A stretch of DNA of 64,000 nucleotides from Gemmatimonadaceae bacterium. GTDB taxonomy: Bacteria > Gemmatimonadota > Gemmatimonadetes > Gemmatimonadales > Gemmatimonadaceae. The stretch lies in NCBI GenBank assembly GCA_016742275.1, contig JACVCD010000002.1, positions 248,001-312,000 of the forward strand, given 5' to 3'. The notes under the pieces were generated by a model, which saw only the letters and a program-made list of their open reading frames with translations, was not told where the DNA came from and ran no database searches. Shown here piece by piece: positions 7,178 through 61,237 of the stretch (its first letter is position 1; each line of letters starts with the position of its first letter). The position numbers and the translations under genes are program-made.

Positions 7178-8827
7178 ATGTCGCGTCCAGTTTCTCCGTG
7201 GCTGAGTGCCACGTCCCTTTCCTGCCGTCAACCTGACGGCAGTCCGCTTCTTTCCGATGCATCGCTCGGTATTGCCAACGAGCGTGTGGGTCTTGTTGGT
7301 CCCAACGGTTCCGGAAAGAGCACCCTACTTGCAATCCTGAGCGGCGCACGAGCGCCAGAGCATGGCCAGGTGGAGCGCGCTGGACGACTCGGTGTGCTGT
7401 CGCAACATGGCCACCTTGCAGCACATGCCACCATTGCTGATGTCCTCGGAAAATCCGCAGTGCTCGAGGCGCTCGCGCGCTGCGAGCAGGGCATAGGCAC
7501 CAGCGAAGACATTCAGATCGTCGGTGATGATTGGGATATCGCCCAGCGGCTGACGGTGGCGCTTGGCGAATTCGGATTGGAATACCTGCCGCTCGATCGA
7601 CCGGTGCACGCGGTCAGCGGTGGAGAGCTGACGCGATTGCGATTCGCCGCGTTGTTGCTGCACTCTCCCGATATGCTGCTGTTGGATGAACCCACGAACG
7701 ACCTCGATGTCGAGCATCGTGAGGCCGTGCATTCTCTCGTGCGGACATGGCCTCGCGGATTGCTCGTGGCCACCCATGACCGTGAACTGCTCATGCAGGT
7801 AGATCGCATTATCGCCATTGAACAGCATTCACTGGTGAGTTACGGCGGCAATTGGGAACACTATCGAGCGGAACGTGAGGCCCAACAGCAGGCAGCGGCG
7901 CAGGAGCATGCGAGTGCCATTGCCGCACGTGAGCGAACCCGTCGGGCACAGCAGGAGACCAAGGAGCGACAGGATCGCCGTGATGCGGCGGGGCGCAAGG
8001 CGCGCGCACGTGGTGGTCAGGCCCGCATTCTGCTTGGCATGCAGGCCGAACGCAGCCAGGGAACTGGCGCACGACTGCTCGACACCCGCGAACGTGCGAA
8101 TGCGGAAGCGGGTGCGCGCGTGCGTTCGGCGCATGCACGCCTGGATACCTTCGAGTCGTTGAATCTTCCCACGATGTCGAGCGGGCTTGCTGCGGGCACA
8201 TTGGTCGTGTCATTGCGCAACGCATCCGTACATGTAGTTCCCGAAGCACCACTGCTGCAGCATGTCACGCTCGAAATTCGCGGACCGGAACGAGTGGCGC
8301 TTGTTGGCCCGAATGGTAGTGGGAAGTCCACGCTGCTTCGGGTCCTGGCTGGTGTGCCATCAGGCCCCGCGGTTTCGGCCGAGTCCTGGCATCGCGGCGT
8401 GACACCAAGGGAGATCGTGTATCTCGATCAGCACGTCACAGTGATGTCGCGTCATGGCACGGTGCTCAATGCCATGCGCGCCATGGCATCTGACAGGGGA
8501 ATGGACCTGACCGACGAAACACTACGCAGTGCGCTGGCCCGTTTTGGATTTCGCACGGAAATGGCGCTCAGGCGTGCCGACGCGTTAAGTGGTGGTGAGC
8601 GCATGCGCGCAGCATTGGCATGCGTGCTTGGCACGCCAGTGCAGGCCGCACCCAAGCTGCTGGTGCTCGATGAGCCGACCAATCATCTGGATCTGGACAG
8701 TCTCACGGCCATCGAATCGGCACTACGTCGTTATGACGGAGCGTTGGTGGTGGTATCGCACGATGCCCATTTTCTCGAGCAAATCGGGGTCACACGACTA
8801 CTAGATGTACGCAAATGGTACATCTAG
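7178..8827 (+). CDS. ABC-F family ATPase (ribosome-associated type)
   Basis: The 549-residue protein has two ABC ATPase domains and no membrane segment. Each has a Walker A motif GPNGSGKST (41-49 and in the second half), a signature SGGEL or SGGER, and a Walker B LLLDEPTNDLD or LLVLDEPTNHLD. A charged Arg/Gln/Ala-rich linker joins them. This is the ABC-F layout, whose members act on ribosomes in translation rescue or antibiotic protection (Uup, EttA, VmlR types). The ATG at 7178 was preferred over 7145 because the extra residues do not look family-like. Subfamily and possible drug resistance cannot be settled by eye. Confidence 0.92.
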   Translation: MSRPVSPWLSATSLSCRQPDGSPLLSDASLGIANERVGLVGPNGSGKSTLLAILSGARAPEHGQVERAGRLGVLSQHGHLAAHATIADVLGKSAVLEALARCEQGIGTSEDIQIVGDDWDIAQRLTVALGEFGLEYLPLDRPVHAVSGGELTRLRFAALLLHSPDMLLLDEPTNDLDVEHREAVHSLVRTWPRGLLVATHDRELLMQVDRIIAIEQHSLVSYGGNWEHYRAEREAQQQAAAQEHASAIAARERTRRAQQETKERQDRRDAAGRKARARGGQARILLGMQAERSQGTGARLLDTRERANAEAGARVRSAHARLDTFESLNLPTMSSGLAAGTLVVSLRNASVHVVPEAPLLQHVTLEIRGPERVALVGPNGSGKSTLLRVLAGVPSGPAVSAESWHRGVTPREIVYLDQHVTVMSRHGTVLNAMRAMASDRGMDLTDETLRSALARFGFRTEMALRRADALSGGERMRAALACVLGTPVQAAPKLLVLDEPTNHLDLDSLTAIESALRRYDGALVVVSHDAHFLEQIGVTRLLDVRKWYI

Positions 8828-26327: not shown

Positions 26328-26478
26328 GCCGGCCTCCAGTCCACAGCCAAGGGAAGGATATGGGGGAAGCTAGGCGATATGTGTCTCTTTGCGAGTGGGA
26401 AGAACCCTGACACGAGCACAGCCGCTACCGCCTGCTGCGCGTGACGCCGGACCTTTTGGTGATGTTGATGAGGTACAC

Positions 26479-56857: not shown

Positions 56858-57496
56858 TTACGGTGTGCGATTCATCCCGTTCAATGTCGTGCGCACTCCG
56901 GTCGATACGGCATCACGGGGTGTCTTCCCTTGCTGAAGATCGCGCTCGATTCCGCGACGGAAGGCATTGAGATCCCTATCGAGTGCACCACCTTCCAATA
57001 ACGACTCCATGGACGATGTGGCGATGTCGAGAGGAACTCGCTGCATGGCAAGATCGGTCACGATAGTCATCGGCACCGTGAGTGATGTCCCACTTCCCCG
57101 TTTACGTCGGGCCTCGGCAAGTCGGACAATGGCGCGCCTGTCTACACCAACAAACAATGCGCTGGCTGTCGCCTTGAGCTCATCACTGTCGGACCCTGGG
57201 CCGAGCAGGCCACGTGCATCGCGCAGGCGTGAGGCCAATGATCGCACGGCAATCAGAATGCGTTGATCGTCGGCACCTTTCAGAACCCCCTCCGCCATCT
57301 TGTCGCGTAACGCATCACCAGGGAGTCGTTCCGACGTAAGCGAATCGACGAGCAGTTCTATCGCGGCACGTGTTGCTGGAGCAATACCTGCCGCCGGTGA
57401 ATCTCGGCGCGCTTGCGCAGGCAGTTCTTCAAGTGCGGTGGCCAGAGCGAATGCCACGAGCAAATGACGCAGTTGGTGTGGAAGTACCATGGTCAT
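56858..57496 (-). CDS. Exported helical protein of unknown function in sigma operon
   Basis: A 212-residue protein with a signal peptide (LRHLLVAFALATALEELPAQA). The mature part is helical and charged ('AAIELLVDSLTSERLPGDAL', 'RILIAVRSLASRLRDARGLL', VDRRAIVRLAEARRKRG, VPMTIVTDLAMQRVPLDIA). I recognise no family. It begins within the stop of the glycogen-binding-module gene (ATGA overlap), making it the last gene of the 59.97-56.86 kb operon. Confidence 0.7.
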   Translation of the reverse strand: MTMVLPHQLRHLLVAFALATALEELPAQARRDSPAAGIAPATRAAIELLVDSLTSERLPGDALRDKMAEGVLKGADDQRILIAVRSLASRLRDARGLLGPGSDSDELKATASALFVGVDRRAIVRLAEARRKRGSGTSLTVPMTIVTDLAMQRVPLDIATSSMESLLEGGALDRDLNAFRRGIERDLQQGKTPRDAVSTGVRTTLNGMNRTP

Positions 57497-58065
57497 CGGG
57501 CACTGCTCACGAGCACGATCGAGTTGGGGACACCAAAATCCTCTTCCGCCTCTGCAGGTGCACCGGGGTCGCGCACCACCTGACCGTCGATCACGAATGC
57601 ATATGCATGTCGTCCAGCAGGAAGTGGCAGCAAGGTGCTCCAGGTTCGACCATCCGAGCCTAACTCGAGTGGTGTTGCATCTGCGTTCCATGCATTGAAG
57701 TCACCAACGAGACTCACGCGTCGCACACCGGCAGCCATGACGGAAAAACGCACACCCATCGTGGATGTGGTTGGGGACATCGGGGCGGCGGACTCGTCGA
57801 CTATGGGCAAGGAAGCCGCGCGTGCACGTTGTACGAGATGCTGAAGCGAAGCACCAACGCACATGAAGGCAATGGCGGCGGCCGCTGCGACAGGCCGTGA
57901 TACATGCCAACCGCGTGCGAGTGTTACGGGATCGGGGGCCGTCTGCGCCAATGCTTCATCGAGAGCGGCATGCCAGGCGTCCCGAACGGGCACATCCTGT
58001 CGCATCTCGACAATCGCACGGGCCAGTGGGCCAGTGGGCTCGTTATCGTCCTGCGGTGCCGTCAT
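57493..58065 (-). CDS. Membrane protein with glycogen-binding (CBM48/AMPK-beta-like) module, in anti-sigma position
   Basis: The 190-residue protein has a cytoplasmic N-terminus (APQDDNEPTGPLARAIVEMR), one transmembrane helix (VAAAAAIAFMCVGASL), and an Ig-like glycogen-binding module at about 105-188: VRRVSLVGDFNAWNADATPLEL, WSTLLPLPAGRHAYAFVIDG, DPGAPAEAEEDFGVPNS. These are the core motifs of the AMPK-beta/CBM48 (E-set) fold. Its start overlaps the end of the ECF sigma gene by 23 bp, the place where an anti-sigma gene is expected. No zinc finger is present, so anti-sigma activity is inferred from position. Confidence 0.82.
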   Translation of the reverse strand: MTAPQDDNEPTGPLARAIVEMRQDVPVRDAWHAALDEALAQTAPDPVTLARGWHVSRPVAAAAAIAFMCVGASLQHLVQRARAASLPIVDESAAPMSPTTSTMGVRFSVMAAGVRRVSLVGDFNAWNADATPLELGSDGRTWSTLLPLPAGRHAYAFVIDGQVVRDPGAPAEAEEDFGVPNSIVLVSSAR

Positions 58066-58588
58066 AGTCCTCGAGCTCCTGCTGCAGGCGCGTGCATGCA
58101 CGTTGCACTCGCATTTTGAGCGCCGAAACGCCGACGCCCGTTATGCGCGCCATCTCCACATACTCCAGTTGTTCCACATGCTTGAGCAAGAAGGCCTCGC
58201 GTTGTTCGGCTGGCAACACTTCGAGTGCGCGCGCCAGTTCGACACGCAGCTCCGTATCCGGGCCATGCGATGGAACAGCGGCCTGGGTCAGTGCATCGGA
58301 ATCTGTTCGAACCCAACGGGCCCGCCGGCTTCTGGACAGCAGCGCTGTTCGGCAGCGATTGACCAGAATGGAGAACAGCCATGTGCGAAACGCCGTGCGT
58401 GAATCGTATGCGGCGAGCGATCGGTATGCTCTGATCAATGAATCCTGCGTAGCCTCTTCGGCATCCTGAGGTGACCCCAGCATGCGCGTGGCGAATCGCA
58501 GGCACGACGACATGTGTCGATGCACCAGCTCCGTGAATGCATGGGCATTCCCGTCGAGCGCGTGGCGTACGAGATCGGCATCGGTCAT
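58043..58588 (-). CDS. ECF RNA polymerase sigma factor
   Basis: The 181-residue protein has region 2 ('VRHALDGNAHAFTELVHRHM', DAEEATQDSLIRAYRSLAAY, FRTWLFSILVNRCRTALL) and region 4 (LEVLPAEQREAFLLKHVEQLEYVEMARITGVGVSALKMRVQRACTRLQ). The start at 58588 gives the usual length. It overlaps the downstream membrane glycogen-binding gene, arguing for coordinated expression. The upstream gene (58683-59972), same strand, also encodes a glycogen-binding module. Confidence 0.92.
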   Translation of the reverse strand: MTDADLVRHALDGNAHAFTELVHRHMSSCLRFATRMLGSPQDAEEATQDSLIRAYRSLAAYDSRTAFRTWLFSILVNRCRTALLSRSRRARWVRTDSDALTQAAVPSHGPDTELRVELARALEVLPAEQREAFLLKHVEQLEYVEMARITGVGVSALKMRVQRACTRLQQELEDYDGTAGR

Positions 58589-58682
58589 GTGACATGCGTT
58601 ATACCTCGCGACCGTCATGCGGGGTCACTCTGGTATCGGCAGTCGTCATCAGCGTCTGCCGTCGGCGTCTGCTACTGGCGCA

Positions 58683-59972
58683 TCACCGTACGGTGACGAG
58701 CCCGACCTGTCCTCCGAATTCGTCTCGCGCCACAGGTACGCCGGGCGGCGGCGACCAAGCGGCTCCGTCAATGCTCACGTTTATGCGATAGGTGCCCGGA
58801 GCCACAGTCAGTGCCGTTTCCCACCATCCGTCCACTCCACGTAGCATGGAGACCGGTGCCCAATGCGTGGGTTCACCGCTCACGCGCACGGCCGACGCCT
58901 TGGGCAATCGCATACGGAAACGCACTTGCGTTGAGTCATCGCGAACGGCAACGAAGACCGGGGATACTTCCGTCGCATGCGCGTGCTCCTTCGGTCGGCT
59001 CGGCCAACGGGCAAGACTCACTCCCAGTGAGTACACACCGCGGACATTTGCATCGAGTGTCGGTTGTCTGGGTAGCGCAGCGACTCCGGCAACAACGGTG
59101 ACTCCGTTGACTATCGGGACATGCGCATCGAGACGACTCCATAGCTGCGTGCGGCGCAAGGAGCCTCTGCGTTGTGCAATCTCGGATATCGTTGAATCAC
59201 TTGGCGAACCGGAATCACCCAATACCTGGCGCCCCGTCGTCCCACCGCCTGATAGCGCGAAGTGCAACCGGCCCACTGCGAACTGCACATGCGTTCGGAA
59301 ATCGAGTGTGTGTCGGATAGCGTGGGAGGTCACGCGCTGATAGGTCGTATCCAGACGCCAAGTGGCGGTATCAACTCCCTGCGGAGGACCCGGCACCATA
59401 CGAGGAACTGCGACTTTGCGAGTGATCGCCCAATTCCGGCCACTCGAACGCATATCGAATGCCACCTGCACAGACCGAAACTGTTGCTGAACGATGACGC
59501 CGAGTCCCTGCATGTCGCGTGACGGGTCCAGGTTGGACAGGCCGCGATATCCGTAGGCCAGCGCCACTTCGCCTCGACCCACGGTCCGGCTGAGTCGAGC
59601 ATACGCGCGAGTCATTTCCGAAAGCATGATGCAATCCTGCGTGGCATGCCCAACGGTTCCAGAGGCTGCCACGCGCCACGGATGACGATCAGGGGATCGT
59701 GCGCCGAGCGAAACCACCGGTGTATTGGTCCCGAATTGTGTCGCCTGGGCAATGGGAGCCGAGTGTATCGAGAACGACAGATTCGGCGTCTGCGCGGCCG
59801 TGGAGACCATTGAGTTTGCCAGACACTCCAAGCCATTGCCGTTGGTGGTCATCCCGGCCGCCCGGGTCACGAAGGCTCGGGCCCCAACCTCATGTAGTCC
59901 TTGCTGACTTGCGGCGAATCGGAATGGAAGCAAACCGATGATCGTCAGGAGGGCAGTGCGATGGACGCGCAT
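58683..59972 (-). CDS. Exported beta-rich protein with C-terminal glycogen-binding module
   Basis: The 429-residue protein has a signal peptide (TALLTIIGLLPFRFAASQ). A long amphipathic beta-strand region follows (residues about 60-320; 'RGEVALAYGYRGLSNLDPS', 'RLHFALSGGGTTGRQVLG', VYSLGVSLARWPS), resembling an outer-membrane barrel. A C-terminal E-set/CBM48-like module at about 335-425 reads 'QVRFRMRLPKASAVRVSGEP', THWAPVSMLRGVDGWWETALTVAPGTYRINVSIDG. It is upstream of and co-directional with the ECF sigma gene (94 bp apart). The match to a specific barrel family is uncertain. Confidence 0.72.
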   Translation of the reverse strand: MRVHRTALLTIIGLLPFRFAASQQGLHEVGARAFVTRAAGMTTNGNGLECLANSMVSTAAQTPNLSFSIHSAPIAQATQFGTNTPVVSLGARSPDRHPWRVAASGTVGHATQDCIMLSEMTRAYARLSRTVGRGEVALAYGYRGLSNLDPSRDMQGLGVIVQQQFRSVQVAFDMRSSGRNWAITRKVAVPRMVPGPPQGVDTATWRLDTTYQRVTSHAIRHTLDFRTHVQFAVGRLHFALSGGGTTGRQVLGDSGSPSDSTISEIAQRRGSLRRTQLWSRLDAHVPIVNGVTVVAGVAALPRQPTLDANVRGVYSLGVSLARWPSRPKEHAHATEVSPVFVAVRDDSTQVRFRMRLPKASAVRVSGEPTHWAPVSMLRGVDGWWETALTVAPGTYRINVSIDGAAWSPPPGVPVARDEFGGQVGLVTVR

Positions 59973-60108: not shown

Positions 60109-60266
60109 GAGAGGGGGAGATGGAAATAGACATTGAGAGGGTCAGCAACGAAGGAATCGAGTATTCAGAGGCTTGGCGGACAGGACTGCAGTCCTTGCGG
60201 CCGAGCTTCCGAGCACCAGTTCCTTCGTTGCTGAACTCCCAATGTCTATCCCCATCTCCCCCTCTC
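60109..60266. repeat. Dispersed palindromic element, copy C
   Basis: Left arm 60109-60156 and right arm 60220-60266 are inverted copies of about 47 bp with a few mismatches and one indel. The inner part GCAACGAAGGAA/TTCCTTCGTTGC is a perfect stem specific to this copy. The interior has AGGACTGCAGTCCT (60183-60196), a perfect 14-bp palindrome, and shares GGCGGACAGGACTGCAGT with copy A. The gene-free stretch 59973-60358 is filled by this element and short CTCAGAACT-like low-complexity sequence. Confidence 0.87.
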
Positions 60267-60358: not shown

Positions 60359-61237
60359 TCAGAGCGCTGGTGTCGGCAGCAGGTCCAGCAGTTCTGGCCA
60401 GTCGATGAATGGATTCCGATTGCCTTGTGCTCTGAACACCGCGTCGTTTCGCAGGCGCTCCCATGCGTCCACGGGGTCTTCGCGTGCCCACGCCAGCAGC
60501 ATGTCGCGTTCAAACGCGAAGTTGAGCAGGCTGAAGCCACTCGGGCGATCGGCGTTATACCGGAGGTGGAAGTACAGCAGCGCCCGTGCGATGTCACCGC
60601 GTACACTGGCGCGTGGTTCGAACACAATGGTTCCACTGGTGCCGGTGGCGTATCCCAGTCGGCTGACTTCCGTCGTGCCGGCAATGGGTGTCCCCGTCCA
60701 CAGCACGGTTCCGCGCACGAGCCCGTACGGGTAATTGCTGCGGCGTTCATTGGCGGCCGAGTCGGAGCTGAAGAGGTGGTGCAGATCGCTCAGTGCGGGA
60801 TCGAGCTCTGCACCGCGACTGCGGGGCCAGGTATGCTCGGTATTGATTCGGCTTTGTGCTGCAGTGGCGCGCGTCGTCACGCCGATCGCTTCACGTCCGG
60901 TATAAAGATCGATAATCCACGGGCGCGTCCCGCGATCGACATAGGCGTACAGCGAGTCGCGCGCTGATGTGTAGCCCAGTGTGCGTTGTGTGCGCACGGT
61001 CTGCTGCAGCGCCGAAAGCAACGCCGCGTCACACCGGTTGGCAGCGCCCGAGTAATACGACGACTGTGCCGCCGGCGGTGCGGTGACGCAGGTATTGGGC
61101 GGCGGAGGCGTGGTGGTGCCATCGTCGCTTGCGCAGGCGCCAAACAGCGCCAGCGATGCGATAAGGACAACGGATCGTGCCGGCGACCGTGTGGCCGTGC
61201 GTGGCACGAAATCGTGAACGCGCGTACAGTGAGTCAT
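60359..61237 (-). CDS. Secreted endonuclease I family nuclease (lipoprotein)
   Basis: The 292-residue protein has a lipoprotein-type signal (SVVLIASLALFGACAS). A nuclease core follows with RINTEHTWPRSRGAE, SDLHHLFSSDSAANERRSNYPYG, RGDIARALLYFHLRY and GNRNPFIDWPELLD. These are the motifs of the bacterial endonuclease I/ExeM-type family; the His in EHTWP is the general base and acidic/His residues bind a metal ion. It probably degrades extracellular DNA for nutrients. Copy C of the palindromic element lies downstream. Confidence 0.9.
   Translation of the reverse strand: MTHCTRVHDFVPRTATRSPARSVVLIASLALFGACASDDGTTTPPPPNTCVTAPPAAQSSYYSGAANRCDAALLSALQQTVRTQRTLGYTSARDSLYAYVDRGTRPWIIDLYTGREAIGVTTRATAAQSRINTEHTWPRSRGAELDPALSDLHHLFSSDSAANERRSNYPYGLVRGTVLWTGTPIAGTTEVSRLGYATGTSGTIVFEPRASVRGDIARALLYFHLRYNADRPSGFSLLNFAFERDMLLAWAREDPVDAWERLRNDAVFRAQGNRNPFIDWPELLDLLPTPAL

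Follow-up and report, generated by a model that had tools for sequence, protein, structure and literature searches.

In the 64,000-nucleotide stretch of a Gemmatimonadaceae genome analyzed here (the window), positions 56858-59972 hold a tight cluster of four genes, all on the minus strand and read in the order gene 1, gene 2, gene 3, gene 4 (Table 1); together with the glycogen-binding-type domain (CBM48) that ends the products of both gene 1 and gene 3, this layout suggests an operon encoding a trans-envelope signalling module, best called an undescribed variant of signalling by an extracytoplasmic function (ECF) sigma factor and its anti-sigma factor. The stop codon of the sigma gene (gene 2) lies inside gene 3, the two overlapping by 23 nucleotides (nt), and the start of gene 4 overlaps the stop of gene 3 as ATGA, so that genes 2, 3 and 4 are probably coupled in translation. 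An earlier note on this DNA had described an ECF sigma gene overlapping a membrane protein with a CBM48/AMPK-beta-like module, and an upstream gene ending in a similar module; both descriptions hold.

The arrangement recurs well beyond this genome. In 64 annotated loci, from about 45 genera of Gemmatimonadota, the membrane-CBM48 gene came immediately after the sigma gene in 58, nearly always together with the helical and barrel genes (genes 4 and 1 of the window), which argues that the arrangement is not due to chance; the synteny check proposed in the earlier note thus did not refute the pairing. The commonest order, found in 42 loci, is sigma, membrane-CBM48, helical and barrel; elsewhere the barrel gene is first, third or on the opposite strand, and the barrel-first order of the window is common to one other genus (locus L061). 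Using an alignment of the helical protein, this family was detected in 122 of 200 sampled Gemmatimonadota genomes (about 60%), AMPK1_CBM being present in 120 and both in 118, a co-occurrence with a p value of 1.6e-47 that is descriptive only, since the genomes are related.

Moreover, a scan of named records with a 14-member alignment returned, besides Gemmatimonadota records, a single Candidatus Eisenbacteria record that has the full set of four genes. In one deltaproteobacterial record the sigma gene and the CBM48 protein were accompanied by a weak match to the helical family, and the sigma/CBM48 pair alone was present in two more, labelled Acetothermia and Thermotoga. Within the Eisenbacteria group the helical family was found in 7 of 47 genomes, and four further loci carry the sigma, membrane-CBM48, helical and barrel genes together. 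At locus L197 (1300-1746) a lipoprotein-like open reading frame (ORF) with a CBM48 lies directly upstream of an ECF sigma and membrane-CBM48 pair; the two-CBM48 arrangement therefore recurs there, with a lipoprotein replacing the barrel.

The product of gene 2 matched the Pfam families Sigma70_r2 (59.5 bits, amino acids (aa) 31-99 of the 191-aa ORF) and Sigma70_r4_2 (49.2 bits, aa 126-178), both above cut-off, and has only the sigma-2 and sigma-4 regions joined by a short linker, the make-up of an ECF factor. The sigma factors of the module may already be in a numbered ECF group. We considered them as a single clade and rejected the idea, as two other ECFs of the same genome were placed inside and the grouping was not clean. 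Of the two ECF genes of this genome nearest to the module sigmas, one precedes a membrane protein and the other a short soluble protein, both with N-terminal patterns similar to those of the putative anti-sigma proteins of the module. At L280 (1898-2503) the membrane protein that follows a close ECF relative is also similar at its N-terminus, and its C-terminal domain may be a degenerate CBM48.

Gene 3 very probably encodes an anti-sigma factor, given its fixed adjacency to the sigma gene, its predicted topology and the presence of zf-HC2 in distant homologues, and we regard its binding to the gene 2 sigma factor as highly likely. Its CBM48 is above the curated Pfam scores, with 38.2 bits for AMPK1_CBM (cut-off 26.8) and 35 for CBM_48 (cut-off 22.4). 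The protein has a single hydrophobic segment; in its family, 48 of 58 transmembrane segments are above a hydropathy of 1.6, and the net charge averages +2.6 over the 15 residues preceding the segment, compared with +0.4 beyond it, a positive-inside bias which predicts a cytoplasmic N-terminus, one membrane passage and a CBM48 outside the inner membrane. zf-HC2 is a zinc finger typical of anti-sigma factors. Homologues at loci L202 and L205, in genomes around the deltaproteobacterial record, carry zf-HC2 above the gathering score and AMPK1_CBM in one protein adjoining an ECF sigma gene; a weak zf-HC2 match was seen in 2 of 11 intermediate members, and the Gemmatimonadota membrane-CBM48 proteins that were scanned whole gave no zinc-finger match. 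The gene 3-type N-termini found in Gemmatimonadota are related subtypes according to profile comparison (probability 96%).

One could also regard gene 3 as a membrane glycan-binding protein, its gene being only co-transcribed with the sigma gene and its target, a reading for which the missing Pfam anti-sigma domain in the Gemmatimonadota proteins speaks. We find it very improbable, considering the fixed-order adjacency in 58 of 64 loci, the zf-HC2 finger of the homologues, the N-in topology and the N-terminal patterns held in common with ORFs adjoining the closest ECF relatives.

Gene 1 is likely to encode an outer-membrane barrel. In its structural model about 13 long beta strands are predicted (aa 36-320) ahead of the CBM48 (about aa 345-429), and the barrel part matched OmpG, OMPLA, FapF and NalP, at low confidence. 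The alternation of hydrophobicity was raised in the 65 barrel domains compared (mean z 1.9, with 27 above 2) and absent in sigma and helical controls. The CBM48 of gene 1 scored 22.2 bits against AMPK1_CBM when taken alone, below the cut-off of 26.8, and 26.8 bits with its neighbours in frame; it is nevertheless real, because the modelled C-terminal part matches the glycogen-binding domain of AMPK beta1 (1z0n) with a TM score of 0.87 and a root-mean-square deviation of 1.6. This module would face the periplasm, as an N-terminal export signal and an even strand number would place it there.

Gene 4 encodes an all-helical protein, modelled with a predicted local distance difference test (pLDDT) score of 89.1, with an export signal recognized by eye and no enzyme motif matched, and it is probably a periplasmic adaptor. 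Structure comparison returned designed helical-repeat proteins (Z 9-11.5) and MTERF4 (about 8), and no clear natural relative; the candidates were rejected as fold relatives since helical repeats can reach such scores simply through their arrangement, and no solved structure related by sequence was found. A second helical paralogue is located downstream of the module in L047, L065 and L072.

Taking these features together, we propose with some confidence a trans-envelope signalling module made of an anti-sigma factor, a barrel and a helical adaptor as the explanation of the whole cluster. The cytoplasmic N-terminus of gene 3 would hold the ECF sigma factor, its single helix would span the inner membrane and its CBM48 would lie in the periplasm, opposite the C-terminal CBM48 of the gene 1 outer-membrane beta-barrel, with the secreted helical-repeat protein of gene 4 probably acting between them as adaptor. 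The contact of the two CBM48 modules with each other, or with the helical protein, might then be altered by a ligand, which could be an alpha-glucan, some other saccharide or a change in the envelope itself; the anti-sigma factor would thereupon be inactivated, probably by regulated proteolysis, and the sigma factor freed. Proteolytic release of the sigma factor is known from ECF systems in general.

A precedent for such a contact is the anti-sigma factor PupR: its STN subdomain and the signalling domain of the PupB receptor are homologous and touch each other (PMC7186176); receptor contact of this kind can shield the anti-sigma factor from proteolysis (PMC11637429). By analogy with PupB and PupR, the CBM48 modules of genes 1 and 3 may be partners across the periplasm, a direct partnership that we put forward tentatively, at somewhat less than even chances. 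Still more speculative, and in our view rather doubtful, is a new signalling class in which barrel and anti-sigma factor would recognize each other by way of their paired CBM48 modules, whether or not a saccharide bridges them, the helical-repeat protein serving as periplasmic adaptor.

Several observations weigh against the proposed module. The barrel model is of low confidence (mean pLDDT 54.5, with about 84 for its CBM part) and the barrel domain of the window reached only z 1.4 in the alternation test. No Pfam anti-sigma domain was recognized in the N-terminus of the window's gene 3, and when the profile of one related Gemmatimonadota N-terminus subtype was compared with that of the zf-HC2 homologues, the result was not significant. 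The anti-sigma CBM48 of the window lacks the second tryptophan of the sugar platform, replaced by valine, while its barrel CBM48 keeps both. Finally, barrel and helical genes occur without the sigma gene in two loci, and sigma, anti-sigma and helical genes without a nearby barrel in three.

The earlier note had read the system as a sigma factor controlled by a glucan-sensing membrane protein. The anti-sigma part of this claim is very likely on the grounds given above (synteny, topology, zf-HC2 homologues), but neither a glucan as the signal nor the use of starch or glycogen is established, and we hold a saccharide ligand of any type to be an even matter. As regards the aromatic glucan-binding residues on which the claim depended, only the barrel CBM48 of the window has the full pair. 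Following the AMPK residue numbering and the ligand roles that we take W100, W133, K126 and L146 to have, the first platform tryptophan (W100 of AMPK beta) is present in 58 of 58 anti-sigma modules and 64 of 64 barrel-type modules and the second (W133) in 46 of 58 and 59 of 64, respectively; the K126 equivalent is replaced (Ala/Asn) and that of L146 is Phe or Tyr in most modules. The second tryptophan is absent from both modules in 4 loci and never from the barrel alone (Fisher p 0.0016, on related sequences).

These residues bear on a simple glucan sensor, in which the anti-sigma CBM48 would bind a periplasmic alpha-glucan (starch, glycogen or maltodextrin) and free the sigma factor for glucan use, gene 1 being a glucan porin or surface binder. 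The CBM48/AMPK1_CBM identity, the match to the cyclodextrin-bound CBM of AMPK beta, the retention of both tryptophans in most copies and their joint loss would all fit, as would the existence of polysaccharide-sensing, CBM-bearing anti-sigma factors (RsgI, PMC12203970) and the higher frequency of GH13 in module-bearing genomes (79 of 122, vs 22 of 78 other genomes). We nonetheless consider it unlikely: GH13 was not detectable in 43 of the 122 carriers (35%), the genome of the window has two weak GH13 matches only, the valine of its anti-sigma module and the loss of K126-type residues do not favor glucan binding, and no glucan-metabolism gene recurs beside the module in the 64 loci, where the recurrent flanking ORFs were rejected as linked metabolic genes, being shadow frames or local synteny. 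Furthermore, the simple sensor of two module proteins overlooked gene 4 and the barrel nature of gene 1, which make a multi-component envelope relay the likelier mechanism. The sequence data do not choose between a CBM48 relay and a direct reading of polysaccharide.

An envelope-integrity sensor is a further alternative, to which we give the same low weight; here the CBM48 modules would serve only as protein-protein modules, the barrel and helical proteins would report outer-membrane assembly or load, and the sigma factor would drive an envelope response like RpoE. The lack of linked metabolic genes, the several paralogous copies per genome, the partial loss of ligand residues, the 43 genomes having the module without GH13 and a promoter-like pattern with few matches, of the type found at the copy on contig C19, before two lipoprotein-like ORFs are consistent with it, whereas the tryptophan platform retained in most copies is not, even if the first tryptophan, invariant in both modules, may be structural.

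This pattern, TGACG-N16-TGTTG, is conserved only before C19-type sigma genes, immediately ahead of the sigma start codon (L007 around 8190-8240, C19:109217-109243 in the genome of the window, with orthologues in L031, L033, L036 and L037), and is possibly an autoregulatory, near-leaderless promoter of the C19 copy. As a means of defining a regulon it was rejected as too unspecific, with 7 matches vs 1 for the reversed control in this genome and 85 vs 23 in 13 genomes. One match, GTGACG-N16-TGTTG at window positions 26441-26467, lies 11 nt before a lipoprotein-like ORF (MASPRTLFAMMKRF...GFTGC), and may mark a site used by the C19 sigma factor or be due to chance. For the operon of the window itself no regulon motif was found, and neither consensus sigma-70 promoters nor terminators were above shuffles.

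PF16561 has six matches in this 4.57-Mb genome, corresponding to three clusters with all four genes (on contigs C4, C19 and C17, the barrel module of C17 being below the Pfam search level) and an orphan pair on C13. The orphan pair (L008, 5559-7619) comprises barrel and helical genes without sigma or anti-sigma, and no other AMPK1_CBM match in the genome is as good as that of its barrel CBM48. The other copies have 22-36% identity to the window copy, and are therefore old.

Compared with known systems, the module resembles FecI-FecR-FecA and PupI-PupR-PupB, which also have an ECF sigma factor, a single-pass anti-sigma factor and an outer-membrane partner with a homologous periplasmic domain; it differs by having a CBM48 at the C-terminus of a small barrel and an extra helical protein, and Pfam detected no TonB-dependent receptor or STN domain in the four operon proteins. 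With SigI-RsgI of Clostridium thermocellum it shares a single-pass anti-sigma factor that can bear a carbohydrate-binding module on the outer side of the membrane (PMC12203970), but here the sigma factor is an ECF and not of SigI type, the domain is CBM48 and not CBM3, CBM42 or PA14, the envelope is Gram-negative with a barrel partner, and gene 3 has no Pfam match to RsgI, a protein marked by its N-terminal domain and a periplasmic autocleavage domain. The L202 and L205 proteins, joining zf-HC2, a transmembrane segment and CBM48 beside an ECF sigma gene, link it to zf-HC2 (ZAS-type) anti-sigma factors, unlike the window protein and the scanned Gemmatimonadota members, in which no such finger was matched. 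The modules share with the AMPK beta glycogen-binding domain the fold, the first tryptophan and, in most members, the second, while differing in their predicted periplasmic location, their replaced K126 and L146 equivalents and the valine of the window anti-sigma module. ECF52 (SCO4117) is likewise an ECF sigma factor linked to a periplasmic carbohydrate-binding domain (PMC8999054), but in that case sigma factor and domain form one fused protein. The earlier note knew of no system with this exact arrangement, and we also found none described in the open literature searched, nor any description in open PMC literature of a CBM48, glycogen-binding or early-set domain in an anti-sigma factor.

Table 1. 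Genes of the four-gene cluster and their main domains, in window coordinates.
Feature	Position	Strand	Remarks
Gene 1, secreted barrel-like protein, 429 aa	58683..59972	-	N-terminal signal-peptide-like segment; C-terminal CBM48/AMPK-beta-like module
Gene 2, ECF sigma factor, 181 aa from ATG at 58588	58043..58588	-	alternative ATG at 58618
Gene 3, putative anti-sigma factor, 190 aa	57493..58065	-	cytoplasmic N-terminus, one transmembrane segment, periplasmic CBM48 (predicted)
Gene 4, secreted all-helical repeat-like protein, 212 aa	56858..57496	-	family without Pfam match
CBM48 module of gene 1	58686..58940	-	both sugar-platform tryptophans, W371 and W406
Predicted transmembrane segment of gene 3	57832..57888	-	aa 60-78, hydropathy 1.71
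CBM48 module of gene 3	57505..57756	-	W126 kept; W133-equivalent of AMPK beta1 is Val

At positions 60109-60266, a short way upstream of the operon, are nested inverted repeats whose arms measure 31 nt (90% complementary) and 15 nt (100%); they may represent a mobile or REP-like element. Positions 60359-61237, adjoining the operon, encode a member of the Endonuclease I family (129 bits) that carries a lipoprotein-like signal at its N-terminus.

ECF systems belong to the principal means through which bacteria sense their environment, and for most of them the signal is unknown. The module described here brings two parts that are not in the described systems compared, CBM48 modules at either side of the periplasm and a helical family that has no Pfam name, and it offers testable envelope-signalling partners in Gemmatimonadota, an abundant and little-studied phylum of soil and freshwater. 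The module also illustrates how a fold that binds glycans in metabolism may have been turned to signalling. If the pairing of CBM48 modules were true, it would parallel, by convergence, the STN-STN pairing known from iron-uptake signalling, and would be a main envelope-sensing system of Gemmatimonadota.

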